Below, piece by piece: positions 14,238 through 32,940 of a DNA stretch of 59,304 nucleotides (positions within the stretch are counted from its first letter, which is position 1; each line of letters begins with the position of its first letter). The DNA is from Opitutia bacterium. GTDB taxonomy: Bacteria > Verrucomicrobiota > Verrucomicrobiia > Opitutales > Seribacteraceae. The notes beneath the pieces were generated by a model. It did not search any database, was not told the origin of the DNA, and worked only from the letters and a program-made list of their open reading frames with translations. Location: assembly GCA_002686835.1 (NCBI GenBank), contig NYYP01000041.1, forward strand, positions 1 through 59,304, written 5' to 3'. The position numbers and the translations under genes were made by a program.

Positions 14238-14294
14238 TGCTTGGTTACAAGTTTTGGATGACTTTTAGGGTGGTCGTCCTAAGAAGGGGATTTG

Positions 14295-15332: not shown

Positions 15333-15337
15333 GACTG

Positions 15338-15682
15338 ATGAATCGGGTGTGGTGGATGTTTGTAATTCTTGCAGTTTCTTTATTCGGAAGCGGGGCAATC
15401 TCCATCGTTTGGTTACGTATGGAGATTTCCGCTACCGCTAAGAATTGTGGAAACCTAGAAGATCAAAGAGAGATGGTGGCACGCGAATTACGGGAACTGA
15501 GAGGGAGAAAATCGAGAATGCTCAGGCCTTCGATGCTGGCACAACTTGTCGAGGGAAGGTTGCGGGTGCCCTCCGTGCGGAGGACAGTTCATGTGACTGA
15601 AAGGGAAATGGATTCCTATTTGCATTCCGAAATTGCAAGAAGTAATAATTTAGACAGGAGGGCTATCTTAACCCGACAATAG
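15338..15682 (+). CDS. ftsL: FtsL-like bitopic division protein
   Basis: The product has 114 residues. One N-terminal membrane helix (about 5-26) is followed by a charged helical segment (about 33-60) suited to a coiled coil, then a short tail. Sequence identity to FtsL is too low to see by eye. The call rests on topology, size and position between rsmH and ftsI, where ftsL lies in most bacteria. FtsL would bridge FtsQ, FtsB and FtsW/FtsI at the septum. It is 5 bases after rsmH and one base before ftsI. No separate ftsB candidate is seen. Confidence 0.6.
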   Translation: MNRVWWMFVILAVSLFGSGAISIVWLRMEISATAKNCGNLEDQREMVARELRELRGRKSRMLRPSMLAQLVEGRLRVPSVRRTVHVTEREMDSYLHSEIARSNNLDRRAILTRQ

Positions 15683-15683
15683 G

Positions 15684-17468
15684 ATGAAAAATGTTTTTAT
15701 TTCTTCCTATCGTTTCTACCTTACTTTTTTTGCTGTACTCCTAACCTTTTGCACCCTCGGGGGGCGACTCCTGCATCTGCAGGTTTGGCAATCAGATAAA
15801 TACAGTGAACTTGCGGCTAATGCCCGTAAAAATTTCATCCAGGAACGGGCGAGAAGAGGTGACATTGTTGACCGAAAAGGCAGTTTGCTGGCGACCACAA
15901 AATCAGTCGTGGTGGTGGGGGTGGACCCTCATGCATTTAATCAGGATGATCAGGGCAAACTTCACCAGCTTGCTCAACTGCTCAAGCTGGATTATCAAAC
16001 TGTTTACGATTCTGTAACGAAAAAATTTACCACCAAGGGGGAGCAAAAACTAAGCCCTGTCAGGTGGGTGAAGCTGCAGGAGGGAATTGACGAATCTACT
16101 TACAAGCAGGTTAAGCAACTCCAGGTTGGCGGCGTTTATGGGAATTATCAACATTCACGCTTTTACCCCAACCAACAATTAGGGGCACATGTCTTGGGGT
16201 ATGTGAACAAAGAGGGAAAGGCCTGCATGGGGATTGAGTTGATGGCGGACTACTACCTGAAGGGTCAGGATGGATGGATTGAGAGTGAGCGTGATGGCAG
16301 AAGAAGGGAGATGCCCCAGTTTAGGTCGGTGGAATTTTTGGCGAAAGATGGTCTTAATGTACAATTATCGATTGACCGGGTCATACAAGACTCAGTGGAA
16401 GAGGAGATATCGAACCTTTTTGAGAAATACTCACCATTAAGTGTGTCGATCATTGTTAGCCAGCCTGCCACAGGAGAGATTTTAGCGATGGCTAACGGAC
16501 CGACCTTTGACCCAAATTTATTCAATGATTTCCCTCTGGAAAACCAAAGGAACCGGATTCTTACAGATTTGTATGAACCGGGCTCGACATACAAAATCAT
16601 TCCAGTAGGAGGTGCACTAAACGAAGGTATTATCCGACCAGACGATATTGTTGATTGTTCGGTATCAAGATATGAAGTTGGAAAAAAATCATTACGATTA
16701 CCCAAGGACCATCATCCACTGGGCAAAATATCTTTGCATCAAGTAGTTCAGAAATCAAGTAACCGTGGGGCCGCACAAGTGGGTTTGAAGTTGGGTGCAG
16801 ACAGACTCTATAATTATTCCAGGTTGTTTGGGTTTGGTCAAAAAACTAACCTGGGGTTGACTGGGGAAAGATCGGGTGTTTTGCACAAACCAAAAAACTG
16901 GGATGGCCTTACCATCACCCGTTTGCCGATGGGTCATGCAGTTTCTGTGACTCCGATGCAGGTGCACTGTGCCATGAGTGTAATTGCCAATGATGGAATT
17001 ATGATGAAACCAACTTTGATTCGTAAAGTATTTGATCAAAGCGGAAAAACGGTGGTTCCCTTTCCTCCAAGACCGGTTAGGCGGGTTGTTGATGAAGAAG
17101 TGTCCAGGGAAATGACGGATATGCTGGTCAGTGTAGTAGGGAATGAAGGGACCGCCCGTTCTGCAATGATTCCTGGTTTTGATGTGGCAGGGAAAACTGG
17201 AACAACTCAAAAAATTATAGACGGAAAATATTCGAGTAATCACCATGTTGCATCTTTTTCAGGATTTTTCCCTGCTGATAATCCCAAGGCAGTTATCACT
17301 GTTGTGGTTGATGAACCTAAGATGAAAAGGGGCAGGTTGGGGTATGGGGGAAGTGTAGCGGGGCCATCATTTCGAAAAATTGCGAATCGGTTGATCAGTT
17401 ATTTTGGCATTCAACCCCATCCTAAAGAAATAAGTTATCTAAGCGGTCTAAAGTTGGAAAACAAGTAG
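15684..17468 (+). CDS. ftsI: Septal peptidoglycan transpeptidase (penicillin-binding protein 3)
   Basis: The product has 594 residues: an N-terminal membrane helix (about 10-30), the class B dimerisation domain (ERARRGDIVDRKGSLLATT) and the transpeptidase domain. The three active-site motifs are present: SxxK as GSTYK near residue 300, SxN as SSN near 357, and KTGT near 503. Additional family motifs are HSRFYPNQQLGAHVLGY and PMGHAVSVTPMQ. There is no PASTA domain. It cross-links septal peptidoglycan with FtsW. It is followed 2 bases later by murE. Confidence 0.92.
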   Translation: MKNVFISSYRFYLTFFAVLLTFCTLGGRLLHLQVWQSDKYSELAANARKNFIQERARRGDIVDRKGSLLATTKSVVVVGVDPHAFNQDDQGKLHQLAQLLKLDYQTVYDSVTKKFTTKGEQKLSPVRWVKLQEGIDESTYKQVKQLQVGGVYGNYQHSRFYPNQQLGAHVLGYVNKEGKACMGIELMADYYLKGQDGWIESERDGRRREMPQFRSVEFLAKDGLNVQLSIDRVIQDSVEEEISNLFEKYSPLSVSIIVSQPATGEILAMANGPTFDPNLFNDFPLENQRNRILTDLYEPGSTYKIIPVGGALNEGIIRPDDIVDCSVSRYEVGKKSLRLPKDHHPLGKISLHQVVQKSSNRGAAQVGLKLGADRLYNYSRLFGFGQKTNLGLTGERSGVLHKPKNWDGLTITRLPMGHAVSVTPMQVHCAMSVIANDGIMMKPTLIRKVFDQSGKTVVPFPPRPVRRVVDEEVSREMTDMLVSVVGNEGTARSAMIPGFDVAGKTGTTQKIIDGKYSSNHHVASFSGFFPADNPKAVITVVVDEPKMKRGRLGYGGSVAGPSFRKIANRLISYFGIQPHPKEISYLSGLKLENK

Positions 17469-17470
17469 TT

Positions 17471-19009
17471 ATGAAAAATAACCTCCAGGAAGTAATAAGT
17501 GTAGAAAGCGTAAAGTCCCGGGTGACGCCCAACCGGATATTGCGAGAAGTTATGGACCAAGAATCCATTCCTCAGAAAGGATCACTCAGTCACACAATCA
17601 AAGCGATTTGTTCAGATAGCAGAAGAGTTGTGCCTGGATCTGCATTTTTTGCAATTCCTGGAAGCAGAACCAACGGTGAGTTACACCTAAAAGAGGCATT
17701 AGACAGGGGGGCAAAAGTGGTTGTTTCTGAATCACCGGATCTCGACTTGCCACATGGTGTAACCAATATCACGGTGGATAATGCACGCAGATCATTAGCA
17801 CGGTTTTCAAAGAAGTTCTATGATTCTCCTGACGAATCGATGAGTTTAGTGGGAATAACTGGAACCAATGGAAAAACAACAGTGAGTACATTGACTAGAC
17901 ACTTATTGGAGGAACCCGGACGACCGGTGGGACTAATCGGAACTGTACAGTATAATTTGGGTGATCGTGATGTCCCTTCTTTCCGAACGACTCCGGAAGC
18001 AATCGACCTGTATCCTATGTTAAAAAGCATGTTGGCAGCAGGTTGCAGAAGCGCAGTGATGGAAGTGAGTTCGCATGGGATTCATCAGGCACGGGTAAGT
18101 GGTATCAATCTGGAAATAGCGACCTTTATGAATCTGACCCGTGACCATTTGGATTATCATGGAAGTATGGAGGAATACTACAGAGAGAAAAGAAAGCTGT
18201 TTAATGGCTTGAATGGACCCTTACCCAAGATGGCCGTAATTAATGGAGATTGTCCATATGGAAGACGTTTGGTTGAGGAATTACCTCCCCAGGTTCGGGT
18301 TCTCACATTTGGTCTGGAAGAGGGAAATCACTTCCGGGCAAAAAATCTTACTTTAGACTCTGAAGGTTCAAAATTTATCCTTGAAAGCCCATTGGGGAAC
18401 AGTGTGGTGGTAAGCCCATTAATTGGACGATACAATGTTTCAAATGTATTAGCCTCATTTGCAATTATGCATGCCATGGGTGAGGATGTTTTAAAATCAA
18501 TCCAAAAGCTTAGAAAATTTCATGGAGTAAGCGGTCGGATGGAGCTTGTGGATAAAGGACAACCCTATCGGGTGGTAGTGGATTATGCCCATACTCCCGA
18601 TGCCTTGCGCAATGCACTTGAAATGCTCCAGGAATGTACAAAGGGCAAAGTCAGGGTGGTTTTTGGATGCGGAGGAGACCGAGACAAGGGGAAGAGATTG
18701 GAAATGACCCGCGTTGCCTGTGCTGCGGCAGACCAGATATGGGCAACTTCTGATAACCCAAGAACCGAAAATATCGAGTCCATCTTTGGCGATATGAAAA
18801 AAGGGGTTTGCAAGGGAGCTGAGATCTATTTTGTGGAAGATAGAAGGCGTGCAATCGATTTAGCTTTGGAGTCTGCTGATGAAGGCGACTGTGTATTGAT
18901 TGCAGGAAAGGGGCATGAGTCTTTTCAGGAGGTTCAATATACGGCAATCCCCTTTGATGATCGTATCATTGCAGGTGATTTATTGAGTGCAAAACTTTAT
19001 GGGGGGTAA
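17471..19009 (+). CDS. murE: UDP-MurNAc-tripeptide synthetase (meso-diaminopimelate adding)
   Basis: The product has 512 residues and adds the third amino acid to UDP-MurNAc-L-Ala-D-Glu. Residues SSHGIHQAR and MNLTRDHLDYHGSMEEYY bind substrate and carbamylated lysine. The ATP loop is GITGTNGKTTVS (about 127-138). The C-terminal DNPR motif (about 428-431) is the residue pattern of enzymes that select meso-diaminopimelate and not lysine, so this organism probably has Gram-negative-type peptidoglycan. Its stop overlaps the murF ATG as TAATG. Confidence 0.94.
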   Translation: MKNNLQEVISVESVKSRVTPNRILREVMDQESIPQKGSLSHTIKAICSDSRRVVPGSAFFAIPGSRTNGELHLKEALDRGAKVVVSESPDLDLPHGVTNITVDNARRSLARFSKKFYDSPDESMSLVGITGTNGKTTVSTLTRHLLEEPGRPVGLIGTVQYNLGDRDVPSFRTTPEAIDLYPMLKSMLAAGCRSAVMEVSSHGIHQARVSGINLEIATFMNLTRDHLDYHGSMEEYYREKRKLFNGLNGPLPKMAVINGDCPYGRRLVEELPPQVRVLTFGLEEGNHFRAKNLTLDSEGSKFILESPLGNSVVVSPLIGRYNVSNVLASFAIMHAMGEDVLKSIQKLRKFHGVSGRMELVDKGQPYRVVVDYAHTPDALRNALEMLQECTKGKVRVVFGCGGDRDKGKRLEMTRVACAAADQIWATSDNPRTENIESIFGDMKKGVCKGAEIYFVEDRRRAIDLALESADEGDCVLIAGKGHESFQEVQYTAIPFDDRIIAGDLLSAKLYGG

Positions 19010-20421
19010 TGGCGTCTTTTAATCCAGTTGACCTAAGCAGTTGGAGTGGAGGCGAATGGACCAGGCGGCCTGATTCTTTACTCAAAGGTTTTTGTATTGA
19101 TTCGAGAAAAGCTGCCTTGGGCGAATTATTTGTAGCACTTAGGGCACAAAGAGACGGTCATCAATATTTGCAAAAGGCAGTTTCCTCCGGAGTAGTGGGA
19201 GCACTTGTCGACCACCATGTAGAAAGCGTGGATTGCCCGCAATTAGTTGTGCCAAATACCCTGGTCGCATTTCAGCAAATTGCCCAAAAACACAGGGATA
19301 ATTTTGGGGGTAAGGTAGTGGGAGTAACGGGTAGTTGTGGAAAAACCTCCACCAAGGAAATTTTAAGATTATTGCTTAGTGGTGCTCATTGTACCGAAGG
19401 GAATTTCAATAATCATCTCGGTGTTCCAATAACTTTGAGTAGGTTGTCATTAACCAACCATCGCCATGCGGTGATTGAGGCAGGGATCAATCAAACCGGG
19501 GAAATGGATGACCTAACCAGGATGATTAATCCGGATGTTTGTATCATTACATCCATCGATCATTCTCATTTAGCGGGCTTAGGAACAATTCAAACCGTGG
19601 CAAATGAAAAAATAAAACTTTGGTTACAGGCAAAGAAATCATGCATTGGAGTATTTCCGGAGGAATTGCTCCAATTCGATGCCTTTTCCGAAGCGAAGAG
19701 AGACCGATCCTTTGTGGTGGTAAAAAAGAAAAAGATTTCCAGTTCAGAAGAGGACGGAAATGAAGTACTTTATGAAATTTCGACTGAAACAAACGAGCGT
19801 GGGCACTCACTTAACTTATTGATTAAGCGTTGTGGGTGTCCACCTCTGGTTATCCCTGTGGAACACACATCTGAGGGCATGATACGAAATATGGTGCTTG
19901 CATGCGTGGTTGCATGGAAATTGGGAGTTTCAGATCAAGAAATTTGCGAACGCCTACCCCAATATAGGCCCTCTGGTCTACGAGGTTCATGCCTCGTAGG
20001 CCGAGGTTGTTCCTATGTTTTAGACTGTTACAATGCAAATCCTTCGTCGATGTTGGACTCCATACAATTCTTTTTTGAAAAATACCGCAAGCAAGCGAAG
20101 TTGCTGGTTTTGGGAGGAATGAATGAATTGGGTGATTTGAGCCAGGAATTGCACATTCAAACTGGACGCTCCATAAATTTAGCACCCACAGATCAGGCCA
20201 TTATAATCGGTGAGTATGCGAAGGAATTGGCTGATGGGATGATAGAAAATGGGGCCAGTAATGAACAGATCTCAATCTTAAATGATACTGAATCTGCAAG
20301 GCCGTTAATTGAGGATTTTAAAGGTGTTGTTTTGCTAAAAGGAAGCCGGTCCTATCAACTTGAAGAATTGATTCCCGCATGGGCGGTGGAAGAACGGGAA
20401 CCTCTTAAAATCGCATGCTAA
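19009..20421 (+). CDS. murF: UDP-MurNAc-tripeptide--D-Ala-D-Ala ligase
   Basis: The product has 470 residues and completes the stem peptide by adding D-Ala-D-Ala. It has an N-terminal uridine domain with FCIDSRKAALGELFVAL, the ATP loop GVTGSCGKTSTKE (about 105-117), the FNNHLGVPITLSRL block and IEAGINQTGEMD. The central SIDHSHLAGLG and the C-terminal DCYNANPSSM are typical of MurF. It starts inside the murE stop and overlaps mraY by 7 bases, indicating translational coupling. Confidence 0.94.
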   Translation: MASFNPVDLSSWSGGEWTRRPDSLLKGFCIDSRKAALGELFVALRAQRDGHQYLQKAVSSGVVGALVDHHVESVDCPQLVVPNTLVAFQQIAQKHRDNFGGKVVGVTGSCGKTSTKEILRLLLSGAHCTEGNFNNHLGVPITLSRLSLTNHRHAVIEAGINQTGEMDDLTRMINPDVCIITSIDHSHLAGLGTIQTVANEKIKLWLQAKKSCIGVFPEELLQFDAFSEAKRDRSFVVVKKKKISSSEEDGNEVLYEISTETNERGHSLNLLIKRCGCPPLVIPVEHTSEGMIRNMVLACVVAWKLGVSDQEICERLPQYRPSGLRGSCLVGRGCSYVLDCYNANPSSMLDSIQFFFEKYRKQAKLLVLGGMNELGDLSQELHIQTGRSINLAPTDQAIIIGEYAKELADGMIENGASNEQISILNDTESARPLIEDFKGVVLLKGSRSYQLEELIPAWAVEEREPLKIAC

Positions 20422-21560
20422 GTTGGTTACAGTTTGGAGAGGAATTTTGGGGGCCGCTTAGGCTTTTTCAATATATCTCAGTTCGGGCACTGGGTGCTGG
20501 CATAACTGCATTGGTGTTAGGCTTTTGGATCGGACCATCTTTGATTCGTCTTCTTCAAAAGATTGGTGCCAGGCAGGCATTTAGAGACAAGGAGGAGGTG
20601 GGGGAGTTAGCGGAGTTGCACATGGATAAGACCCATACTCCCACTATGGGGGGTATGTTAATTTTTATTTCCGTGTTTTTTAGCGTTATCCTATGGGCAG
20701 AACCAAATGTTTATGTTTGCACCGCATTGGTCACTTACATGCTTCTTACCGGAGTTGGGTTTGCGGATGACTTTTTGAAAGTTTCCAAAAAGAACAGCAA
20801 GGGGTTAGCAGGTAGGTATAAGTTGCTGGGTCAGTTGGGTGCGACTGGAGTTGCTCTTTTTCTGTTGCTGGGTCCGTGGGCAAGTATGTTAAACGGAGCA
20901 GGGCAGGAATCCTTGGGGAGTGCCCATAAAATGAGGGAGTTTTGGGTTCCATTCATTAGTTATCCAGACTCGTCCAGTATTCCAATTCTTTCGCTTGGTG
21001 CTTTATCACTTTTGTATTTGGTCACACTGACCGGTACTAGTAACGCAATCAATCTTACCGATGGTTTGGATGGTTTGGCCATAGGCTGTACGGTCACCGT
21101 AGCTTTAACTTATGCAATAATGGCTTACGCATCAGGCAATTTTCTAATCGCTGAATATCTAAAAATTAGTTGGGTGCCAGGAACCGGAGAGCTTGCCATA
21201 GTTTGTATTGCATTACTGGGGGGGAGTTTGGCGTTTTTATGGTACAATGCTCACCCTGCAGAGGTGTTCATGGGAGATACCGGCTCACTTGCTATAGGAG
21301 GACTGATTGGAATAATTGCATTAATGATCCATCAACCTTTAACTCTGATTCTGGTGGGTGGAATCTTTGTGATGGAGGCAACATCGGTAATTTTGCAGGT
21401 GGCCTCCTTTAAAATGCGTGGAAAAAGAATTTTTCTTATGTCGCCCATTCATCATCATTTTGAATTGAAGGGGTGGAAAGAAACAAAGGTGGTGATAAGG
21501 TTTTGGATTTTATCCCTCCTTTTTGCATTAATTGGACTGGCCACACTAAAGCTGAGGTAA
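20415..21560 (+). CDS. mraY: Phospho-MurNAc-pentapeptide transferase
   Basis: The product is a 381-residue polytopic membrane enzyme that makes lipid I from UDP-MurNAc-pentapeptide and undecaprenyl phosphate. Characteristic motifs are KTHTPTMGGML, GFADDFLKVSKKNSKGL, NAINLTDGLDGLAIG, EVFMGDTGSLAIGG and SPIHHHFELKGW. The aspartates in ADDF and LTDGLDGLA form the active site. The gene is longer at the N-terminus than E. coli MraY by about 20 residues. The stop overlaps the murD ATG (TAATG). Confidence 0.95.
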   Translation: MLSWLQFGEEFWGPLRLFQYISVRALGAGITALVLGFWIGPSLIRLLQKIGARQAFRDKEEVGELAELHMDKTHTPTMGGMLIFISVFFSVILWAEPNVYVCTALVTYMLLTGVGFADDFLKVSKKNSKGLAGRYKLLGQLGATGVALFLLLGPWASMLNGAGQESLGSAHKMREFWVPFISYPDSSSIPILSLGALSLLYLVTLTGTSNAINLTDGLDGLAIGCTVTVALTYAIMAYASGNFLIAEYLKISWVPGTGELAIVCIALLGGSLAFLWYNAHPAEVFMGDTGSLAIGGLIGIIALMIHQPLTLILVGGIFVMEATSVILQVASFKMRGKRIFLMSPIHHHFELKGWKETKVVIRFWILSLLFALIGLATLKLR

Positions 21561-22882
21561 TGAAACGGAATTTGCACAACGATTCACTCGCCAGTTTAGA
21601 TGGCCCAGTGGCTATTTTGGGCGACGGAATTAGCGGTCGTGCTGCTCAAAAATTACTCCATGCAAAAGGCAGGGTTGCTGATCTGTTTGATGAAAAGAAT
21701 CGTATCTTTACCGAATCGCACGCTCAGCACTATTCTTTCATTGTACAAAGTCCAGGCTTTAGACCTGATCATGCCTGGCTAAAATTGGCGGTTGATCAAA
21801 ATATACCTGTATTCTCGGAAGTTGATCTGGGACTAAGTTATTCAGATCACTTGGAGGTGGTTGCGATTACGGGGACTAATGGGAAAACTTCGCTCACCAG
21901 TATTTTGGGCCATATTACGAAGCGATTGAATATGGACTCGATTGTGCTAGGAAATATTGGTGTTCCTATATCGGATGGGGTTGCCGGCGATTCAGTGAGG
22001 AAAAAAATTATATTTCATGAAACCAGTTCATTCCAGTCGCTGACTTCACGTTCCTTTTATCCGGATGCTGTACTGTGGACGAATTTCTCTTCCGATCATC
22101 TTGATTATCATCGTTCGGACAGGGAGTATTTTATGGCCAAATTAAAGCTGGCGGATAATTGTGCGCATCCAGAAAATGTTATGATTGGGTCATCCGTTTG
22201 GGCTGTTGCCCGGAAGTTTGGCATAAAATTGAATCCGAAGTTTCAAGTAATTGAAGCGCTTACATGTCGAGACTTGCCAGGAAATGTTGCCAGCTTTCAC
22301 AAGAGTATTCCCCAGTTAGAGAATTTAGCTTTTGCCGTCCACTGGGCTAAGCAGCAGGGAATTGCAAAAGCAGAATTTTTCGAAGCTTTGCAGGGATATC
22401 AGCCTCATCCTCACCGATTGCACAAAGTGACTACTATTAACGGAGTAAGTTTTTGGAATGATTCAAAATCGACCAATTTTGCTTCTGCACTTGCTGCGTG
22501 TAAGACATTTTCAAATCCTGTAATTTGGATAGGGGGAGGAAAAAGTAAGGGGGAGGAGACTGAGAAGTTTTGTGCACATCTACATCCATTTTTGCAAAGT
22601 GCGTTTCTCATTGGAGAGACTGCAGAAGAACTGGCCGCAAAACTGGCACTTAGAGGAATAAAGGCAGAGGTTTTTGATAATCTTAAAGGTGCAGTTCTTA
22701 GAGCATACAAATTCGCCAAGGGATATGTTGATGTACTATTCAGTCCTGGATTTGCCAGTTTTGATATGTTTTCAAATTATATCGAACGAGGAAATTCCTA
22801 TGAATCCCTCGTTTTCGATTTGAAGAGTGCTTGCCAAGTCACTACGAAATTACCTGTTAATAATTTGCACGCTAGCTACTAA
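21560..22882 (+). CDS. murD: UDP-MurNAc-L-Ala--D-Glu ligase
   Basis: The product has 440 residues and adds D-glutamate to UDP-MurNAc-L-alanine. The N-terminal Rossmann-like part begins AILGDGISGRAAQKLL. The ATP loop is ITGTNGKTSLTSILG. Downstream blocks are LGNIGVPI, ETSSFQ, NFSSDHLDYH, HRLHKVTTINGVSFWNDSKS and WIGGGKSKG, all usual for MurD. An upstream in-frame TTG or GTG lies inside mraY, but the ATG at 21560 overlaps the mraY stop and fits family length. The LysM gene follows after 5 bases. Confidence 0.93.
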   Translation: MKRNLHNDSLASLDGPVAILGDGISGRAAQKLLHAKGRVADLFDEKNRIFTESHAQHYSFIVQSPGFRPDHAWLKLAVDQNIPVFSEVDLGLSYSDHLEVVAITGTNGKTSLTSILGHITKRLNMDSIVLGNIGVPISDGVAGDSVRKKIIFHETSSFQSLTSRSFYPDAVLWTNFSSDHLDYHRSDREYFMAKLKLADNCAHPENVMIGSSVWAVARKFGIKLNPKFQVIEALTCRDLPGNVASFHKSIPQLENLAFAVHWAKQQGIAKAEFFEALQGYQPHPHRLHKVTTINGVSFWNDSKSTNFASALAACKTFSNPVIWIGGGKSKGEETEKFCAHLHPFLQSAFLIGETAEELAAKLALRGIKAEVFDNLKGAVLRAYKFAKGYVDVLFSPGFASFDMFSNYIERGNSYESLVFDLKSACQVTTKLPVNNLHASY

Positions 22883-22887
22883 GAAAA

Positions 22888-23967
22888 ATGAAACTATCAA
22901 AAGTATTCGGTATTGTTCTATCCCTTCATGTTGGGGTTATTCTTCTCGTCATGTTTCAACCAAGTTGCCAGACAACTGGTGGAACAGCAAAGGTCCCGGA
23001 GTCGGAGCAAAGTGCTGTCTCCAGTGAACCAAGTGAGCAATCCTTCAACCAGGCAATTGAGGGTGTTGATCAACCCTTGGGGGAAACCAAGGCGGAGGAA
23101 ACTAAAACCGAGGAGTTTGCTGCACCAAAGAGACCCTCACCGGGTGAACTCATTGTTCCTCAGGAACCCGCATCCACTCCCCCCAGTCCTTCCATTATTG
23201 TTCCGAGCGAAGAGATTGCACCACTGCCGATTGACCTTAAACCATCAGATCTTGCCATTTACAAAGTTGTGAGGGGAGACACTCTTTGGGGCATTGCTCG
23301 CAAAAATGGGGTATCATTGGCCAATTTGCTCAATGCCAACCCCAATCTTGATAAAAGCGGACGGTTGTCCATCGGTCAGGAAATTATGATCCCCGGTATG
23401 ACTGAATCCACTCAAACCAATCTATCCACTGAGGTTGTTGAAAACACTCCGTCTCCGTCACTGGATGGAAGATCATACACCGTAAAAAAAGGAGATACCT
23501 TATCGCGCATTGCCAGAAACCTGAAGGTGAGGCTGTCCGAATTGCTCAAAGCAAATGGAATGTCCATGTCCTCGATTATCAGACCAGGGCAAGTTTTAGT
23601 GGTGCCCGGTAATGGAAGTGGTCAACCAGTTGAAAGTGTTCAGGCAGTTGAGAATTCTCCGAGGGTTGTTCCATCAGGTGCCACCACTCACATTGTTAAG
23701 AAAGGGGAAAATTTATCACGAATTTCTTCGATATATGGAGTTTCAATGGCTCAGATCATGGAATGGAATGGTTTGTCCAACCCCAGTCTGATCCGAGCAG
23801 GGCAGCCACTGGTCGTATCCCAGGGCGAGGGCATAGGAAGCAATGATAATGCCACCCCCGCTTTGAAAAATGAGAGTGCAATAGTCCCTGTCGAAGAGGG
23901 AGGGAGTTTACAGGATTTCTTCAATGATTCTTCCAGTGAGGATAGACCGATTATTGATGCGCCTTAA
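22888..23967 (+). CDS. Envelope protein with three LysM domains, inside the dcw cluster
   Basis: The product has 359 residues. An N-terminal hydrophobic segment (about 7-23) is followed by Cys27 in FQPSC. This could be an anchor or an unusual lipobox. A proline- and glutamate-rich linker follows (about 35-120). Three LysM modules lie at about 124-169, 197-240 and 267-310, each with the GDTLxxIA or GENLSRIS pattern and a final IxPGQ or IRAGQ segment. LysM binds N-acetylglucosamine chains of peptidoglycan. No LytM peptidase or amidase domain follows. The position between murD and ftsW suggests a role at septal peptidoglycan, perhaps NlpD-like (inference). Confidence 0.75.
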   Translation: MKLSKVFGIVLSLHVGVILLVMFQPSCQTTGGTAKVPESEQSAVSSEPSEQSFNQAIEGVDQPLGETKAEETKTEEFAAPKRPSPGELIVPQEPASTPPSPSIIVPSEEIAPLPIDLKPSDLAIYKVVRGDTLWGIARKNGVSLANLLNANPNLDKSGRLSIGQEIMIPGMTESTQTNLSTEVVENTPSPSLDGRSYTVKKGDTLSRIARNLKVRLSELLKANGMSMSSIIRPGQVLVVPGNGSGQPVESVQAVENSPRVVPSGATTHIVKKGENLSRISSIYGVSMAQIMEWNGLSNPSLIRAGQPLVVSQGEGIGSNDNATPALKNESAIVPVEEGGSLQDFFNDSSSEDRPIIDAP

Positions 23968-24008
23968 TAAAAGATGAGCGAACGGTGTGGTGAGAAAGGG
24001 AGGTTCTA

Positions 24009-25136
24009 TTGGCAGTTACAGGAACGGTAAATAGGACAGCAAACTGGGTAACAGCATATATTCTTGTTGCCTCGATTGGATTGACCATGGTCGGTCTGGT
24101 TATGCTCTTTAGTGCCGGTGCCGTTCGTGGTGCTCAGGATCTGCTATTGAAGCAGGTCGTTTGGGTAGTCATCTCCTTGCTCGCCGGTTTGTATGCGTCG
24201 ATGGTTAACTTGGAGTGGCTGAGAAATCGTTCGGTGATTATTTTTGCCCTGTGCATGCTTGGGCTTCTTTTAACGCTGGTGCCGGGAGTTGGGGTTAAGG
24301 TAAATGGTGCTCAACGTTGGATCGGACTTGGAGCGTTACGAATACAACCGTCAGAATTCGCTAAAATTGGCATCGTTTTAATTCTGGCGAAATATTTTGC
24401 AGATCAACAACGGGCAATTGGTACCCTTGTGAAGGGTTTTATCCTGCCTTCATTACTAATTGGCAGTGCCTGTGGTTTGATTATTTTACAACCGGATTTT
24501 GGCACCTGTTTTTTATGTGGAGCTGTAGGGGCGACATTGATGTTTCAGGCTGGAGTTGGCCTTCGTTGGTTATTGCCTGTTGCCGGACTTGCCGTTTCTG
24601 CATTTTCAATTCTGGTCTATTTCGATCCCGTCCGTATTCGGCGAGTAACCTCCTTTTTGGATGTGGAGGCAAATGCCAATGATAGTGCCTATCAATTATG
24701 GCAGGGTATGCTTGCTTTTGGAGTGGGTGGATTGGAAGGTGTTGGTCTTGGGATGGGGCGTCAGCAGATGTATTTCCTGCCAGAGGCACACACGGACTTT
24801 ATTTTTCCGGTGATTGGAGAAGAGCTCGGTTTAATTGCCACATTCACCATCTTGGTGGCATTTTTGATCATGTTTTTTACTGTGGGCATGAAGTTGCGCC
24901 AAATCTCGAGAATGAATGATTATCTGCTGGCGATGGGTGCTCTTCTTTTTATTGTTCTTCAGGCGATCATCAACATGGGTGTGGTTACGGGATGCCTTCC
25001 TACCAAAGGCATGTCACTTCCCTTTATCAGCTACGGTGGGTCTAACTTGGTTGTGACATTTATTTTTGTTGGGTTGGTGATCAATGTCATGAGGAGGAAA
25101 GACAATCCTTCCCCCATTCAAGCCAGGGAATTATGA
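24009..25136 (+). CDS. ftsW: Septal peptidoglycan polymerase FtsW
   Basis: The product is a 375-residue SEDS-family membrane protein with about ten helices. It polymerises lipid II together with FtsI. Recognisable blocks are MLFSAGAVRG, GAQRWIGLGALRIQPSEFAKIG, ILQPDFGT, LPEAHTDFIFPVIGEELG and LPFISYGGSN. The QPSEFAK and EAHTDFIF segments contain family catalytic-site residues. The start is TTG (24009), supported by a strong GGGAGG ribosome site 7 bases upstream, which is unusual for this window. It overlaps the murG start by 4 bases (ATGA). Confidence 0.93.
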   Translation: MAVTGTVNRTANWVTAYILVASIGLTMVGLVMLFSAGAVRGAQDLLLKQVVWVVISLLAGLYASMVNLEWLRNRSVIIFALCMLGLLLTLVPGVGVKVNGAQRWIGLGALRIQPSEFAKIGIVLILAKYFADQQRAIGTLVKGFILPSLLIGSACGLIILQPDFGTCFLCGAVGATLMFQAGVGLRWLLPVAGLAVSAFSILVYFDPVRIRRVTSFLDVEANANDSAYQLWQGMLAFGVGGLEGVGLGMGRQQMYFLPEAHTDFIFPVIGEELGLIATFTILVAFLIMFFTVGMKLRQISRMNDYLLAMGALLFIVLQAIINMGVVTGCLPTKGMSLPFISYGGSNLVVTFIFVGLVINVMRRKDNPSPIQAREL

Positions 25137-26269
25137 AAAATATTGTGATTGCTTGTGGAGGAACAGGGGGGCATTTGACTCCTGGGATTGCCCTTGCCCA
25201 AAGTTTGGAAGTGTTAGGCTGTCCGACTTGGCTCTTTATCAGTCAGAAACAAGTGGATTCACGACTGGCATCAAAATATCCGGAACTCACCTTTGTTGCG
25301 ATGCCAGGAGTTCCTTTGATCAAAACTCCCTGGGGTTTATTAAAATTTTTTAAAGGCTTTATTCTTTCATTTGTTCGTTCCCGTATCTTCTTCAGGAAAA
25401 TTGATGCGGATGTGTTGGTCGGGTTTGGAGGTTTTTCCACTGCTGGACCTGCTCTTGCTGCTCGAACCATTGGTATTCCTTTCCATGTGCATGAAGCAAA
25501 CCGAGTCATCGGCAAAGCGGTTCGTTTTTTGGCCAGTCGTGCCAGTCGAGTCTATCTTCCACGCGGAGTGACCCTGCCAAGTATTTCCGCGGAAAAAATT
25601 TCCCATATTGGGTATCCATTAAGGTCAGACTTCAGAAGAATACCCATGGAGCGAGCCCGTAAATGCATGGGAGTTTCGATGACCGATAAATTGTTATTGG
25701 TGCTGGGTGGAAGTCAGGGGGCTTCCTCCCTGAATAAGTGGGTGAAAAATAACTTGGCCCAATTGGCAGAGGATGGGATTTCAGTCTATTGCTTGACTGG
25801 ATTGCGGGAACAGAATTCAGGGACGGTTCAACTTGAAGGAATAGGTGGGGAAACAATCACCAGTCGGTTTGTCTCATTTAGCGACCAGATGCATATTCTG
25901 ATGTCGGCGGCAAATTTAGTGATTTCTCGGGCAGGAGCAGGTTCCATTGCTGAAATAATAAAGTGCCGGGTTCCATCCATTCTTATTCCTTATCCGTACG
26001 CGGCGGACGGGCATCAACACGCCAATGCAAATTATTTGGAAGCCAAGGGGGGCGGTTTGGTTTGTCTGGAAGAAAATATCAACGACAAATTGCTCCTCGA
26101 AGTAAGGGAAGTCATGTTTAACGAGGAATTCAGGGCCGTGCTTAGAAGGAATCTATATGCATTGGATCATGATGATGTATCTTCCCTTTTGGCAAAAGAC
26201 CTTTTGAAAGACCTGAGAGTTAATAAAAGATCAAAAGTTTCCGCAGAACTTTTGGAGTCGAGAGTATGA
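25133..26269 (+). CDS. murG: Lipid II-forming N-acetylglucosaminyltransferase MurG
   Basis: The product has 378 residues and adds GlcNAc to lipid I on the inner face of the membrane. The N-terminal glycine-rich loop GGTGGHLTPGIALA (about 9-22) and the second glycine loop GFGGFSTAGPALAA are the family hallmarks, with HVHEANRVIGKA following. The C-terminal UDP-GlcNAc half has LGGSQGASSLN, VISRAGAGSIAEI and PYPYAADGHQHANA. It overlaps ftsW and murC-murB by ATGA junctions at both ends. Confidence 0.94.
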   Translation: MKNIVIACGGTGGHLTPGIALAQSLEVLGCPTWLFISQKQVDSRLASKYPELTFVAMPGVPLIKTPWGLLKFFKGFILSFVRSRIFFRKIDADVLVGFGGFSTAGPALAARTIGIPFHVHEANRVIGKAVRFLASRASRVYLPRGVTLPSISAEKISHIGYPLRSDFRRIPMERARKCMGVSMTDKLLLVLGGSQGASSLNKWVKNNLAQLAEDGISVYCLTGLREQNSGTVQLEGIGGETITSRFVSFSDQMHILMSAANLVISRAGAGSIAEIIKCRVPSILIPYPYAADGHQHANANYLEAKGGGLVCLEENINDKLLLEVREVMFNEEFRAVLRRNLYALDHDDVSSLLAKDLLKDLRVNKRSKVSAELLESRV

Positions 26270-28470
26270 AACGTCCCAAGAAAGTTTTATTACTTGGTGC
26301 CGGCGGGATGGGCATGGCACCCTTGGCTCTCTACCTAAAAGGTGCAGGTGTAAGGGTTGAAGCCTATGACGATTGCTTTTGCGAGCCGAACCGTGGTCAC
26401 CTGATCAAGTGTGGGGTAAAGGTTCTTGACGAACTTAATCCCACTAAAAAACCGGACTGCATTGTACATTCCTCTGCGATTAAGCACGATGATCCACGGC
26501 TCAAAAAATTTAAGAATTTGGAAATTCCCTTTTATCGACGTGGTGAATTTTTGGCCAATTTATTTGCCCGTCATAAGGTTATTGCCGTGGTGGGTAGTCA
26601 TGGAAAAACCAGTGTTTCCGGAAGGTTAGCATGGGCACTGAAAGAATGTGGGTTTGAGTCTTCCCATCTCGTTGGTGCCCAGTTTAAAAACTTTTTGTTG
26701 CCAGCAGGGCATTATTCCAAGTCAAGATGGGTGGTTTTGGAAGTGGATGAAAGTGATGGCTCGATCGATTCCTTTTCGCCTTGGATTACAGTTTGCCTGA
26801 ATTGTGATTGGGACCATGTTGATCAATACAGCGATCGATCGTCCTTTGCTAAAACTTTGAGAAGACTGTTTTCGCGCACCAAGGATACCATTATCCATAG
26901 TGACGCAAAACCATTGCCTGAGATTATCGAAGGAATAGATGGGAAATCGATTCATTCATTTGCTAGTCCTAAAGATCCTGCCCGCTTTTTGGAGGCCAAT
27001 AATAATGCTGTTTTGCAAACTGGGTATGTACTCGGATTAGATTTTACGGGGATCAATTTTGGCACATTTCCAGGTATGGAAAGAAGGCAAAGCACTCTGT
27101 ATGAATCGAGAGAACGGATCGTGGTTGAGGACTATGCGCATCATCCCTCGGAGATTGCCAGTTTATTAAAACTCAGGAGTCAGCTATTACCAGATCATGA
27201 ATTAAAGGTAGTTTTCCAGCCCCATCGATATTCCCGTACCAAAGCATTGGCATCTTCCTTTGCCGAAGAGTTGTCGATTGCGGATGAACTTCACTTGCTT
27301 CCTACCTACGGGGCATTCGAGAAATTTGATTTATCAGGTGCGGTGGAGTCGTTAACAGGATATTTGCCACCCCGCCTGCGCGATGCCGCAAAAATATTTC
27401 ATAATTTTTATGATCTGAGAATGTCCTTGGGGAGCAAAAAGAAAGAAACGAGTGATCAAGTTATCTTTCTCGGAGCAGGGAGTATAACCAAGTGGGCACA
27501 TGCTTTTTCGGCCTGGGAGAAGACCGGGGGTGTAAAGCATGACGCCTTTGGTTGTTTTCTCGAGGGACGCATCTCGAACCAATCGAAAATGGTGCGGGAC
27601 ATGCCCCTTGGTTCCATGACAACCATGGGGGTAGGGGGGGCTGCCAAATGGTATGCCGAACCAGCCAATATCGAAGATCTGAGTACCCTTGTCGAAGCAT
27701 GTAATTTTTTCGATATTCAACGGGCAATGATTGGACGCGGATCGAACCTTATCGTGCCTGACCAGGGTTTTGCCGGGTTGGTTATTCGTTTAAGAGGAGA
27801 GTTTTGGCGGTCAATTGACCTTCGGACAAATGATACCATCATCGTCGGTGCAGGAGCCAAACTCAAAGAAATATGTAAATTTGCCTGTGCCAAAAATCTT
27901 AGCGGATTTGAATTTTTGGAAGGAATACCAGGCACACTTGGAGGTGCCCTGAGGATGAATGCCGGAGCTATGGGTTGGGAGATTTTTGATTTGGTCGAGT
28001 GGGTTAAGTTCCTGATGCCAAATGGTGAAATTAAACAAATTTCGGGGGACGAATTGGAAGTGGGCTACCGCTACTGTCGTGAAGCATATGATGGCATTGC
28101 CCTGAGGGCAAAGCTTAGAGCAGAGGGACGAGCTCAACATTTGGAAATTCGCAAAGTGATTGAAAAAATGTCCCGTAAACGAAGAAAGAACCAACCAAAG
28201 CTTGCCAGTTCTGGTTGTGTGTTCCGTAACCCGGACTCCCATCCCGCAGGGTGGTTAATTGAGCAGGCCGGTCTAAAGGGCGAGAAAGTTGGCGGAGCGG
28301 TCGTTTCTGATGTTCATGGTAACTTTATCGTAAATGAGGGAGAAGCTACCACTGAGCAAGTGATCCAACTAATTCAAAAAGTAAAGAAAAGGGTAAAAGA
28401 AACCCACGGAGTAATTCTTGAGCCTGAGGTTAATTTACTGGGGCATTCATGGAAGGAATTCCTCTCCTGA
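26266..28470 (+). CDS. murC-murB: MurC-MurB fusion protein (L-alanine ligase and enolpyruvyl reductase)
   Basis: The product has 734 residues. Residues 1-425 are MurC, which adds L-Ala to UDP-MurNAc: LLLGAGGMGMAPLA, the ATP loop VVGSHGKTSVS, EVDESDGSID, WDHVDQY, VEDYAHHPSEI and QPHRYSRT. Residues 440-734 are MurB, which reduces UDP-GlcNAc-enolpyruvate to UDP-MurNAc with FAD and NADPH: MGVGGAAKWYAEP, IGRGSNLIV, GIPGTLGGALRMNAGAMG, SSGCVFRNP and GWLIEQAGLKG. In the SSGCVF motif a cysteine sits at the position of the proton-donating serine of E. coli MurB. The two enzymes catalyse successive steps. No stop or frameshift separates the halves. Confidence 0.93.
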   Translation: MKRPKKVLLLGAGGMGMAPLALYLKGAGVRVEAYDDCFCEPNRGHLIKCGVKVLDELNPTKKPDCIVHSSAIKHDDPRLKKFKNLEIPFYRRGEFLANLFARHKVIAVVGSHGKTSVSGRLAWALKECGFESSHLVGAQFKNFLLPAGHYSKSRWVVLEVDESDGSIDSFSPWITVCLNCDWDHVDQYSDRSSFAKTLRRLFSRTKDTIIHSDAKPLPEIIEGIDGKSIHSFASPKDPARFLEANNNAVLQTGYVLGLDFTGINFGTFPGMERRQSTLYESRERIVVEDYAHHPSEIASLLKLRSQLLPDHELKVVFQPHRYSRTKALASSFAEELSIADELHLLPTYGAFEKFDLSGAVESLTGYLPPRLRDAAKIFHNFYDLRMSLGSKKKETSDQVIFLGAGSITKWAHAFSAWEKTGGVKHDAFGCFLEGRISNQSKMVRDMPLGSMTTMGVGGAAKWYAEPANIEDLSTLVEACNFFDIQRAMIGRGSNLIVPDQGFAGLVIRLRGEFWRSIDLRTNDTIIVGAGAKLKEICKFACAKNLSGFEFLEGIPGTLGGALRMNAGAMGWEIFDLVEWVKFLMPNGEIKQISGDELEVGYRYCREAYDGIALRAKLRAEGRAQHLEIRKVIEKMSRKRRKNQPKLASSGCVFRNPDSHPAGWLIEQAGLKGEKVGGAVVSDVHGNFIVNEGEATTEQVIQLIQKVKKRVKETHGVILEPEVNLLGHSWKEFLS

Positions 28471-28484
28471 ATACATAGGGCAAA

Positions 28485-29435
28485 ATGAAGACCGAACCAA
28501 ATATAATCATACTGGCTGGAGGCGTTGGTGCTGAGCGGGATATATCATTGTTATCCGGAAGAGCTTTGTTCGAATCCTTGTCCCCTCACTTCACCACAAA
28601 ATTGATCGATTTAACAAAACGGGAGCTGCCATCAGGAATCAGTGCAAACAGTGATATCATCTTTCCTATTATCCACGGGGAATTTGGGGAGGATGGAGAA
28701 CTGCAGGCACTTTTGGACACTGAAGGTATCGAATACTGTGGAAGCGGTTCGGATGCAAGTCGTCTATGTATGCACAAATTTAAGGCCAAAAAAAGAGTGT
28801 CCGGGAATGGAGTTCGAGTGCCGGGCGGGATAGAATTTCACAACCCTTCCGAGTTAATTACTTCTGAAATTATCTCAGGATTGGGCAATGATTTAATCAT
28901 CAAGCCAACAGATCAGGGAAGCAGTGTGTCATTGTTTTTGGTATCCGGGGAAGATGAACTTACTCAAACCTTAAGCCAGTTAAGACCTGGGAGTTGGCTA
29001 TTGGAGGAAAGAGTTTTTGGGCGTGAGGTAACCATTGGCATACTGGAGGAACATCCATTGGGAATTGTGGAAGTGATTCCTGTGGGAGGTGTGTATGATT
29101 ATAAAAGAAAGTATACTCCAGGGTCTACCGAATATCGGTTTCCTGCTGTCATTGATTCAGAAACCGAGGCTGAAATCAAAGAGTTTGCCCTGAACGCATA
29201 CCGAAGTTGCGGTTGCAGAGATTTTGCCCGTGTTGACTTCATGATTTGTGAAGATGGTCATGCTTATTTTTTGGAAATCAATACTCTTCCTGGACTCACC
29301 ACCACCAGTTTACTCCCCAAAAGTGCTAGTTCTTGCGGTTATAATTTTGACCAACTGACAAAAAAATTGGTTACTCCTGCCCGTAATCGCTTTTTAGGAA
29401 TTTCAATGGATGGGCAAACCCCGCCCGCCGCCTGA
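28485..29435 (+). CDS. ddl: D-alanine--D-alanine ligase
   Basis: The product is a 316-residue ATP-grasp enzyme that joins two D-alanines for the MurF step. The N-terminal GGVGAERDISLLSG holds the usual substrate-binding glutamate. Later blocks are PIIHGEFGEDGELQALLD, YCGSGSDASRLCMHKFKAK, IIKPTDQGSS, EERVFGREVTIGIL and FARVDFMICEDGHAYFLEINTLPG, with the magnesium ligands at the end. The start is ATG, 14 bases after murC-murB. Its C-terminus overlaps the longest ftsQ frame by 26 bases. Confidence 0.93.
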   Translation: MKTEPNIIILAGGVGAERDISLLSGRALFESLSPHFTTKLIDLTKRELPSGISANSDIIFPIIHGEFGEDGELQALLDTEGIEYCGSGSDASRLCMHKFKAKKRVSGNGVRVPGGIEFHNPSELITSEIISGLGNDLIIKPTDQGSSVSLFLVSGEDELTQTLSQLRPGSWLLEERVFGREVTIGILEEHPLGIVEVIPVGGVYDYKRKYTPGSTEYRFPAVIDSETEAEIKEFALNAYRSCGCRDFARVDFMICEDGHAYFLEINTLPGLTTTSLLPKSASSCGYNFDQLTKKLVTPARNRFLGISMDGQTPPAA

Positions 29436-29439
29436 ATTT

Positions 29440-30351
29440 ATGAGCAAAAGAAAAAAGAACGATCTCGCAATGCCAGTCAGTTGGCGCAGCCTTAAGCCCA
29501 GTTCTTCGCGAAAATCAAGTTCTCGCATTGCAGTTCGCAAAAGATTGATCATGGCCAGTCGGTTATTTATTGGCAGCGTCATATTATTACTTGGCGGATT
29601 CTTTTTAAGTTTCCAGATAAACGAGACAAGTGTGCATGCGGTTGGACAGAGTGATTATACGGGACCTTCGCAACCGATTGACCGGGTGGTGTTTCGTTCC
29701 GATGGAGCATTGAACCATAAATGGTTTCTTAACTGGATGGGGCCACTGAGGGGCCTTTCTCTGGCCGAGATTAATCTCAAGAAGTTGCAGCTCAATTTAC
29801 TGGAGGAGGATCAAATATTATCGGTTAAAGTTAAAAGGAAATTTCCAACAACTTTGGAAATTTCCATTCAGGAGCGGGAACCTCTATTAGTGCTCAGATT
29901 GCGGGATAGTAAAGTTAAGTTTAAAGACTGGTTAGTTTCAGCGGATGGTTGTTTGTATGAGGGGGCAGAGTATTCGCCTTCGATGTTGAGATTATTGCCT
30001 TCCCTAAAGATTCCTCCAGCAATAATTGAAAGAAATGCTGATGACCAGGGGTATAAAAAGCTTAAGGATATACCAGTTGTCGCTCCACTTTTAGAACTGG
30101 CAAGGTCGGAATACCCAGAAATCTTCCGGGACTGGACAGTGGTCTCCTACCATCGTCCCAGTGACAAGGATCCGGGTGCTAACATTACCGTTAATTCGAA
30201 AAGGGTGGGAAAGATACGCTTTCATCCATCCAATTATGCTTCTCAATTAAGAAGACTTCGCTACCTGTTGGATGAGCCCAAGTTTTCACAAGCTCACTTT
30301 ATCCGTTCAATTGATCTGTCCCATGGTCGATCAGTTTTTGCAAAGATTTAA
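29440..30351 (+). CDS. ftsQ: Division protein FtsQ (POTRA domain)
   Basis: The product has 303 residues from the ATG at 29440. A basic cytoplasmic tail of about 40 residues precedes one membrane helix (about 45-65). A POTRA-type segment follows (PIDRVVFRSDG, LRGLSLAEINLKKLQ, ILSVKVKRKFPTTLEISIQEREPL), then the FtsQ beta domain. FtsQ recruits FtsL and FtsB and links early and late division proteins. A frame open from ATG 29410 would overlap ddl by 26 bases; 29440 follows the ddl stop by four bases and is preferred. The identification uses the POTRA pattern plus position before ftsA. Confidence 0.82.
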   Translation: MSKRKKNDLAMPVSWRSLKPSSSRKSSSRIAVRKRLIMASRLFIGSVILLLGGFFLSFQINETSVHAVGQSDYTGPSQPIDRVVFRSDGALNHKWFLNWMGPLRGLSLAEINLKKLQLNLLEEDQILSVKVKRKFPTTLEISIQEREPLLVLRLRDSKVKFKDWLVSADGCLYEGAEYSPSMLRLLPSLKIPPAIIERNADDQGYKKLKDIPVVAPLLELARSEYPEIFRDWTVVSYHRPSDKDPGANITVNSKRVGKIRFHPSNYASQLRRLRYLLDEPKFSQAHFIRSIDLSHGRSVFAKI

Positions 30352-31650: not shown

Positions 31651-32940
31651 ATGAATCAAGATATCTTATTTGAAGAAGAAAACCTGCAATGTTCGAGTGA
31701 AAATTCCTATGGAATAAGGGCCAAGGTTATTGGGGTGGGGGGAGCTGGTATATCTTTGGTCGACGGACTGAGATTCGATAACTTTGATTCCGTTGATAAT
31801 TTGGTGATTGATGTGGATATGAAAGCCGTATCTGAATCGCTTGCTTCTGAAAAATTCTGTTTTTCAAAAAGGCATACCCGAGGAATGGGAACCGGGGGAG
31901 ATATTGCCCTGGGTAAACGATTAGCCGAAGAAGAAAAAGATAAGATTCGCAAGCAATTGGACGGTGTGGATCTGGTCTTTCTCCTTGCGGGTCTTGGAGG
32001 AGGAGTCGGAGGTGGAGTTGCTCCAGTTGTGGCCAGGCTTGCCCGCGAGCACGGTGCCTTAGTTTTTGCATTCGCTCCTCTGCCTTTTAGTTGGGAGAAA
32101 TCTCGGCATTCACAGGCGGAGGATTGCCTTTCCGAACTCCGCAAATATGCCAATGCGGTGGTGCCCCTGCCCAACGATTCCCTCCTTCAAATTGGTGGGG
32201 AAGATGCCACCGCACTGGAGTGTTTTGCCGAGGCTGGTCGCAATGTAAGCAGGGGGATTAGTGCCATTTGCAACTTGGTTTTTAAGCGGGGTATGATCGA
32301 TGTAGACTTTTCATACCTGCGAAAAGTCTTTTCCGCCCGGGCAGGGCGCACTCTTTTCGGATATGGCAAAGGAAATGGTAAAGATGCGTTGAGGGAATCT
32401 TTGCGCGATTTAATGCTCTGTCCCATGTTGCACATGCCAGATGTATCGAAGGCTGCGGACGTATTATTGATTTTTATTCAAGGTGGTACTTCCCTAAGTA
32501 TGAGTGGACTACAGGCGGTATCGAAAGAGATTAGGGATTCTTTTAAAGCTGGGGAAGAAGTTGTTTTCGGTGCTCATGTTGATGAGAATCTTGGCGACGA
32601 AGTTAAGATTACCGTATTGGGGGCTACGGCTCTTGAGCCCTTAATTAAATCAGCGGATGTGGCTCCTGTTGCCCAACAGGTCATGGAACTGGCATCGCCC
32701 CCAAAACAGTCACATCGCTCGAAGTTGGAAAACCAAAAGAATAAATCGCAAAATGTAAAACCGGGTGCCAATAGTAAAAGCAGCAACAAGCAATCCAAGT
32801 TAGAACAAAATACATTTTCATTTATGGAGGAGAAAAACCAAAGAGGTATCTTTGATGACCTTACCCAAAGGAATATGTATGAGGGAGAGGATTTGGATGT
32901 ACCTGCATACCTCAGAAGGGGAGTCAAGATTGCCCTCTAG
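31651..32940 (+). CDS. ftsZ: Cell division GTPase FtsZ, divergent
   Basis: The product has 429 residues. The tubulin-like GTPase core is present: KVIGVGGAG, the G-box AGLGGGVGGGVAP (113-125), LPFSWEKSRH and the C-terminal VPAYLRR peptide that binds FtsA. Several key positions are altered. The tubulin signature GGGTGTG is GGGVGGG, so the threonine is a valine (119). The T7 loop NVDFADV is DVDFSYL (217-223), where the second catalytic aspartate is a tyrosine (222). The nucleotide asparagine in NTDAQ is an aspartate (DVDMK). GTP hydrolysis may therefore be slow or use other residues. It is still the only ftsZ in the cluster. The leader is C-rich, without a ribosome site. Confidence 0.92.
   Translation: MNQDILFEEENLQCSSENSYGIRAKVIGVGGAGISLVDGLRFDNFDSVDNLVIDVDMKAVSESLASEKFCFSKRHTRGMGTGGDIALGKRLAEEEKDKIRKQLDGVDLVFLLAGLGGGVGGGVAPVVARLAREHGALVFAFAPLPFSWEKSRHSQAEDCLSELRKYANAVVPLPNDSLLQIGGEDATALECFAEAGRNVSRGISAICNLVFKRGMIDVDFSYLRKVFSARAGRTLFGYGKGNGKDALRESLRDLMLCPMLHMPDVSKAADVLLIFIQGGTSLSMSGLQAVSKEIRDSFKAGEEVVFGAHVDENLGDEVKITVLGATALEPLIKSADVAPVAQQVMELASPPKQSHRSKLENQKNKSQNVKPGANSKSSNKQSKLEQNTFSFMEEKNQRGIFDDLTQRNMYEGEDLDVPAYLRRGVKIAL

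Follow-up and report, generated by a model that had tools for sequence, protein, structure and literature searches.

Whether cell division needs GTP hydrolysis and treadmilling by FtsZ is a debated question, addressed mostly with alleles engineered in Escherichia coli and Bacillus subtilis. In the structures of Staphylococcus aureus FtsZ (SaFtsZ, numbered one above E. coli FtsZ), D210, the equivalent of E. coli D209, swings and places the catalytic water, D213 (D212) and G72 are fixed and shape the surroundings of this water, and R143, which reaches the gamma-phosphate via water, is required for efficient hydrolysis (PMC8936486). The same work describes N44 and D46 as holding Mg-bound waters and Q48 and N208 as taking part in the T2/T7 contact, reports that the D213N, N208L, and D46A substitutions abolish assembly, and holds the two catalytic aspartates of the T7 loop to be conserved across species (PMC8936486). 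In E. coli, T108A leaves a low GTPase activity and stops treadmilling (PMC8175707), D212A hydrolyzes GTP slowly (PMC4383033), and for D212G one assay gave a GTPase activity reduced about tenfold and another an activity below 1% (PMC7320174); D212G is reported to be functional in division despite its very low GTPase activity (PMC4383033, PMC7320174).

The protein described here shares its phylum with the FtsZ proteins of V. spinosum, Prosthecobacter, and Methylacidiphilum, and ftsZ is essential in V. spinosum (PMC12283558). A natural homolog with a degenerate signature (AGKAGSA) and a degenerate T7 loop is the thaumarchaeal Nmar_1262 of Nitrosopumilus maritimus, which is reported not to polymerize in yeast, the Cdv proteins being proposed for division (PMC3684127). 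Our search of the open-access literature found no description of an order-wide loss of a T7 aspartate or of the residue-level pattern presented below, and prior notice is possible.

The gene under study lies in a stretch of 59,304 nucleotides (the window) from a marine Verrucomicrobiota bacterium (Table 1). Its product scores above the cut-off with both FtsZ domains of Pfam, PF00091 (E value of 2.9e-33, 116.2 bits against a cut-off of 33) and the C-terminal PF12327 (45.7 bits against 27), and below the equivalog cut-off with TIGR00065 (E value of 3.5e-65, 220.6 bits against 295.2), and is thus a recognizable yet divergent FtsZ. A sequence search of the PDB returned 52 sequences, nearly all named FtsZ, and the identity to the solved FtsZs is about 30 to 33% over the core. 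An AlphaFold model computed from 26 family sequences had a low confidence (mean pLDDT of 53.5) and was dropped as a guide to the pocket and to the interface, the pLDDT being below 50 across T7 (residues 211 to 233); at the level of the fold, for which it was kept, its best Foldseek matches were all solved FtsZs, with a target-normalized TM score of about 0.8 to 0.87. Its common descent with FtsZ is secure, and the fold, the domain order, the place after ftsA, and the FtsA tail are those of the canonical proteins of E. coli, B. subtilis, and S. aureus.

Table 1. Position of ftsZ, its altered and retained motifs, and its cluster in the window (replacements give the E. coli residue first)
Feature	Position	Strand	Basis and remarks
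dcw cluster from mraW through ddl	14292..29435	+	ORFs; Pfam for part
ftsQ (POTRA domain)	29410..30351	+	PF08478
ftsA, 401 aa	30384..31589	+	PF14450 and TIGR01174 above cut-off
ftsZ, 429 aa	31651..32940	+	ORF; PF00091 and PF12327; sole FtsZ found in genome
T1 loop GAGISL (aa 31-36), N24 to S35	31741..31758	+	Alignment; S in 28/30 family members
T2 loop DVDMK (aa 54-58), NTDAQ in E. coli	31810..31824	+	Alignment
T4 signature GGGVGGG (aa 116-122), T108 to V119, T110 to G121	31996..32016	+	Alignment; V119 codon GTC
E149-K-S-R152, E138 and R142 retained, G139 deleted	32095..32106	+	Alignment
G196 in helix H7 (N186 to G196)	32236..32238	+	Alignment; canonical FtsZ has D or N here
T7 synergy loop DVDFSYL (aa 217-223)	32299..32319	+	Alignment; alignment-free motif check; Y222 codon TAC
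C-terminal FtsA-binding peptide (predicted) LDVPAYLRRGVKI (aa 415-427)	32893..32931	+	LDVP and YLR unchanged across 26 family members

The gene is the last of a complete dcw cluster (mraW-ftsI-murE-murF-mraY-murD-ftsW-murG-murCB-ddl-ftsQ-ftsA-ftsZ), directly after ftsQ-ftsA. An intact cluster had been claimed in the preliminary description of this DNA, and ORFs together with Pfam bear this out: mraW, ftsI, mraY, ftsW, murG, murCB, and ddl are backed by Pfam, and murE, murF, and murD are assigned by gene order and translation only. An ORF for a LysM protein lies between murD and ftsW. The murC and murB genes are fused into one reading frame of 734 amino acids (26266-28470), a fusion also known from V. 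spinosum (PMC12283558), where it is described as essential.

We mapped residues by multiple alignment with E. coli FtsZ, whose numbering is given first, and took as the canonical baseline the FtsZ proteins of E. coli, B. subtilis, and M. tuberculosis together with the published statement of conservation across species (PMC8936486). The window FtsZ retains the glycine-rich T4 loop, D45 (D56), G71 (G82), E138, R142, N165 (N175), D166 (D176), F182 (F192), and D209 (D219). It departs from canonical FtsZ in T108V, T110G, N24S, N43D, Q47K, N186G, N207D, D212Y, and the deletion of G139. The three motif changes originally singled out are all borne out by the alignment: the signature GGGTGTG reads GGGVGGG, with V119; the asparagine of NTDAQ is an aspartate (N43 to D54), in a loop that also carries T44 to V55 and Q47 to K58; and NVDFADV in T7 reads DVDFSYL (N207 to D217, D212 to Y222), as an alignment-free motif check confirmed as well. 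The changes N24 to S35, Q47 to K58, and N186 to G196 and the deletion of G139 come in addition to that list. Position 186, an N in E. coli, is occupied by D in the B. subtilis and M. tuberculosis proteins; N24 and this N or D are putative base contacts in the FtsZ pocket. In terms of SaFtsZ, the equivalents of D210, R143, G72, and D46 are retained and those of N44, Q48, N208, D213, and T109 are changed. The C-terminal tail LDVPAYLRRGVKI is the predicted FtsA-binding peptide; it had been noted as kept, and indeed its core residues, L415-P418 and Y420-R422, are invariant in the 26 family members aligned.

Domains, gene position, and tail therefore mark the protein as an FtsZ, but it fails two motif tests usually taken as defining, the GGGTGTG signature and the pair of T7 aspartates (NxDFxD), of which the first is present and the second is a tyrosine; most Verrucomicrobiota FtsZs also fail the test of the two aspartates. 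Within the genus, Y222 is found in seven of eight species, as is V or I at position 119, and since seven other species share the same or a sister state, the replacements in the window ftsZ are not sequencing or assembly errors. The E. coli alleles ftsZ(T108A) and ftsZ(D212A/G), which polymerize with low GTPase activity, are replaced at the same two positions (PMC8175707, PMC7320174, PMC4383033). Each of these alleles carries one engineered change in an otherwise canonical FtsZ, whereas the window FtsZ is a natural wild type with bulky residues at both positions and with further pocket changes alongside them. Unlike Nmar_1262, it belongs to an intact dcw cluster and retains D209, R142, D45, and the FtsA tail.

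To place these changes, we tabulated the pocket residues of 193 distinct verrucomicrobial FtsZ sequences, the T7 pair being scored in 192 and gapped in one. In the window family (n = 30), N43D is constant, as are D45, G71, E138, R142, N165, D166, and D209, and N24S, T110G, N186G, and N207D are present in 28 members, the exception being the basal genus g2; S35, G196, D217, and G121 are specific to the family minus g2. Position 212 is H in 17 members, Y in 7 (the window genus), and D in 6; at position 108, 18 members have T, 9 have V or I, and 3 have M. Among the 73 FtsZs of other Opitutales families, D212 is absent from 69, which mostly have T, S, or A instead, and D209 is retained in 63. Over the phylum (n = 192), 30 sequences have both T7 aspartates, 120 the first only, 31 the second only, and 11 neither. 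Since the T7 register is uncertain in the alignment of distant members, we rechecked the order-level claim with an alignment-free motif search, which found D at the second T7 position in 1 of 48 unambiguous sequences of the order and in 6 of the 30 family sequences. The loss of D212 is hence a trait of the order and the pairing of V/I119 with Y222 a trait of the genus, so that the alignment across Verrucomicrobiota proposed in the preliminary description shows the missing second T7 aspartate to be no peculiarity of the window FtsZ; N43 to D is likewise common across the phylum.

The Prosthecobacter- and Akkermansia-like families sampled differ from Opitutales in that D209, and not D212, is replaced (KLGLDDL). 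The families that we infer to be these, f33 and f29, combine D209 to G with a retained D212 (KLGLDD or similar), a mirror image of the Opitutales change; together with f31 (L194-L204, L111, and L112 for the three families), they have a T7 loop of the form xxGLDDL or IGFDDL, with D at 211 and 212. Family f30 (L144, L150, L153), possibly Methylacidiphilum, has a T4 loop reading GGAMGSAG or GGGMGSAG and C or H in place of G71; the alignment of its T7 loop is poor. Family f3 (L074, L125, and L126, from G038, G064, and G079, genomes of 3.5 to 4.9 Mb) is the extreme end of the trend of pocket degeneration in Opitutales, with GGGFSGG or GGFAGG in T4 and N165 lost; an intact FtsA lies beside ftsZ in G038 and G064. 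PF00091 and an order-wide FtsZ profile found no FtsZ in several Opitutales families with genomes of 0.8 to 1.0 Mb (f6, f25, f27, f28), nor in G112, a single-contig genome of 2.3 Mb; the genomes without a match are G041, G060, G063, G068, G077, G091, G093, G106, G112, G117, G118, and G127. Where such genomes have matches to the FtsA profile, these are mostly about 310 to 370 amino acids long, the size of MreB or PilM, and it is possible that ftsZ and ftsA were both lost within part of Opitutales.

Changes that slow or stop GTP hydrolysis by FtsZ in laboratory bacteria thus appear to have been fixed in nature. The window lineage has its sole FtsZ altered at the exact positions used for GTPase-defective mutants, and nearly the whole order lacks one catalytic aspartate, yet retains FtsA, FtsQ, FtsI, FtsW, and the wall-synthesis cluster. 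We tentatively propose, with rather less than even confidence, that nearly all of Opitutales and much of Verrucomicrobiota divide with an FtsZ that lacks one of the two T7 aspartates, that hydrolysis with two aspartates is unneeded, and that the window family adds a chemistry of its own at the interface, with V/I119 and Y222, and K/R58 and D217. The natural Y, H, D, and T variants at position 212 offer a direct test of how much hydrolysis division needs. Chlamydiota and Planctomycetota, which are related to Verrucomicrobiota, have lost FtsZ, and the pattern therefore offers intermediate states.

The window ftsZ is under strong purifying selection and is not decaying. Because dS is saturated in most pairs of the genus, dN/dS is based on three close, unsaturated pairs, for which it is about 0.02 to 0.03 (0.013/0.43, 0.0144/0.46, and 0.0043/0.187). 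Within the family, FtsZ and FtsA are equally conserved (85 versus 85% in L057). Elsewhere in Opitutales, FtsZ often shows the lower conservation of the two (23 versus 39% for FtsA in L125, 29 versus 45% in L143), which fits the accelerated evolution of verrucomicrobial ftsZ reported in 2007-2008, in Prosthecobacter and Methylacidiphilum (PMC2474590 and its reference 40).

Within a monomer, T108 and D212 are located on opposite sides, and they come into contact only across the filament interface. T108 was gained or lost three times on the family tree, each time on a branch that also carries a change at position 212 (T/H to V-I/Y, T/H to M/D, and I/D against T/H). A length-weighted draw puts the chance of this at about 0.003, the test being post hoc and the three events lying partly on the longest branches; of the variable columns, 212 matches 108 best. 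Because long branches are frequent in the order tree, we used only its shallow portion covering the family. This co-change is modest evidence of selection on the filament interface and thereby suggests that filaments form.

We give about even credence to the reading that the window FtsZ works in division and polymerizes, that its composite active site has been rebuilt, and that its GTP turnover is probably slow. The protein would still form head-to-tail filaments and still bind FtsA, with D219 and R152 left as the hydrolytic core, Y222 in the place of the second aspartate, V119 in that of the phosphate-contacting threonine, and the cross-interface contacts of T2 and T7 altered in charge (Q47 to K58, N43 to D54, N207 to D217). 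Assembly would depend on GTP and turnover would be slow, giving longer-lived filaments and slow treadmilling as in the T108A and D212A/G alleles, and compensating changes would make a state like that of these alleles viable as wild type. Since T108 and D212 mutants elsewhere slow or stop hydrolysis, slow or altered hydrolysis by the window FtsZ may soundly be expected; what we infer from the residues comprises GTP binding, polymerization, how fast GTP turns over, and what K58, D217, and Y222 do. The equivalents of D213 and N208 are both changed, so that the protein might not polymerize, and the loss of the putative base contacts N24 and N/D186 could result in weak or altered nucleotide binding instead of slow hydrolysis. 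We leave as speculation that K58 fills a K+ site beside T7, near which Q48 lies in SaFtsZ, because a D occupies the position of K58 in the sister genus g3.

The enzyme might instead turn GTP over at an ordinary rate, its replacements balancing one another overall, with D219, R152, K58, D217, Y222, or a different bound cation substituting for what was lost. The absence of D212 from nearly all sampled Opitutales families (69 of 73 sequences), the strong constraint on the window FtsZ, the D at 212 of L013, L014, L016, and L023, which are nested among H-bearing family members, and the retention of the equivalents of D210 and R143, the more active catalytic residues (PMC8936486), would all agree with such compensation. 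In the studies cited, however, removal of T108 or of D212 lowers hydrolysis (PMC8175707, PMC7320174, PMC4383033), and two further T7/T2 contacts, N207 and Q47, are altered as well, and we regard an ordinary rate as unlikely.

Similarly doubtful, in our estimation, is a pseudo-GTPase scaffold that would bind a nucleotide or none and assemble into static filaments or a layer attached to FtsA, with FtsZ turnover dispensable for septal synthesis in these bacteria. Contacts to the phosphate (T108), to the Mg-bound water (N43), putatively to the base (N24, N/D186), and within T7 (N207, D212) are all altered, the related family f3 goes further with its FtsA intact, and some Opitutales are without a detectable FtsZ; on the other hand, the family keeps the phosphate-loop glycines, D45, D209, R142, and N165 without exception, although a pocket no longer in use could afford to lose them.

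We consider it very unlikely that the pocket has lost its selectivity for guanine along with N24 and N/D186 and may use another nucleotide. S35 and G196 are present in 28 of the 30 family members, N165 being retained, and Asn25 and Asn166 are among the GTP contacts in a docking study of S. epidermidis FtsZ (PMC10020519). Against this, N165 and the stacking F192 (F182) are retained, and a role of position 186 in binding the base is general structural knowledge only.

A PF00091 search of the window genome (2.16 Mb, 89% complete) gave a single match, the window ftsZ, and one copy in each of six genomes of the same genus, so that the second, canonical ftsZ that would have made it a paralog was found in none of the seven; it does not stand beside a canonical FtsZ, as FtsZ-like proteins (FtsZl, CetZ, BtubA/B) do. 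Relatives with 60 to 85% identity are encoded by about 30 genomes (Opitutales, Opitutia, and Verrucomicrobia MAGs and isolates). The lone extra copy, on contig 107 of G024, is E. coli-like (its E value is 2.5e-119 with E. coli FtsZ and 1.2e-41 with the window protein) and is probably contamination. A paralog, contaminant, or assembly artifact with the true FtsZ elsewhere, for which the 89% completeness of the window genome would leave room, is scarcely credible and is refuted for the sampled genomes by the same protein recurring in about 30 relatives at one copy per genome.

Directly downstream of ftsZ lies an ORF of 310 amino acids (33024-33956) with no match in Pfam or NCBIfam. Two genes downstream of ftsZ, at 33979-37188, is a gene for a Na+/H+ exchanger-like protein of 1069 amino acids with a cyclic-nucleotide-binding domain (PF00999, PF00027).
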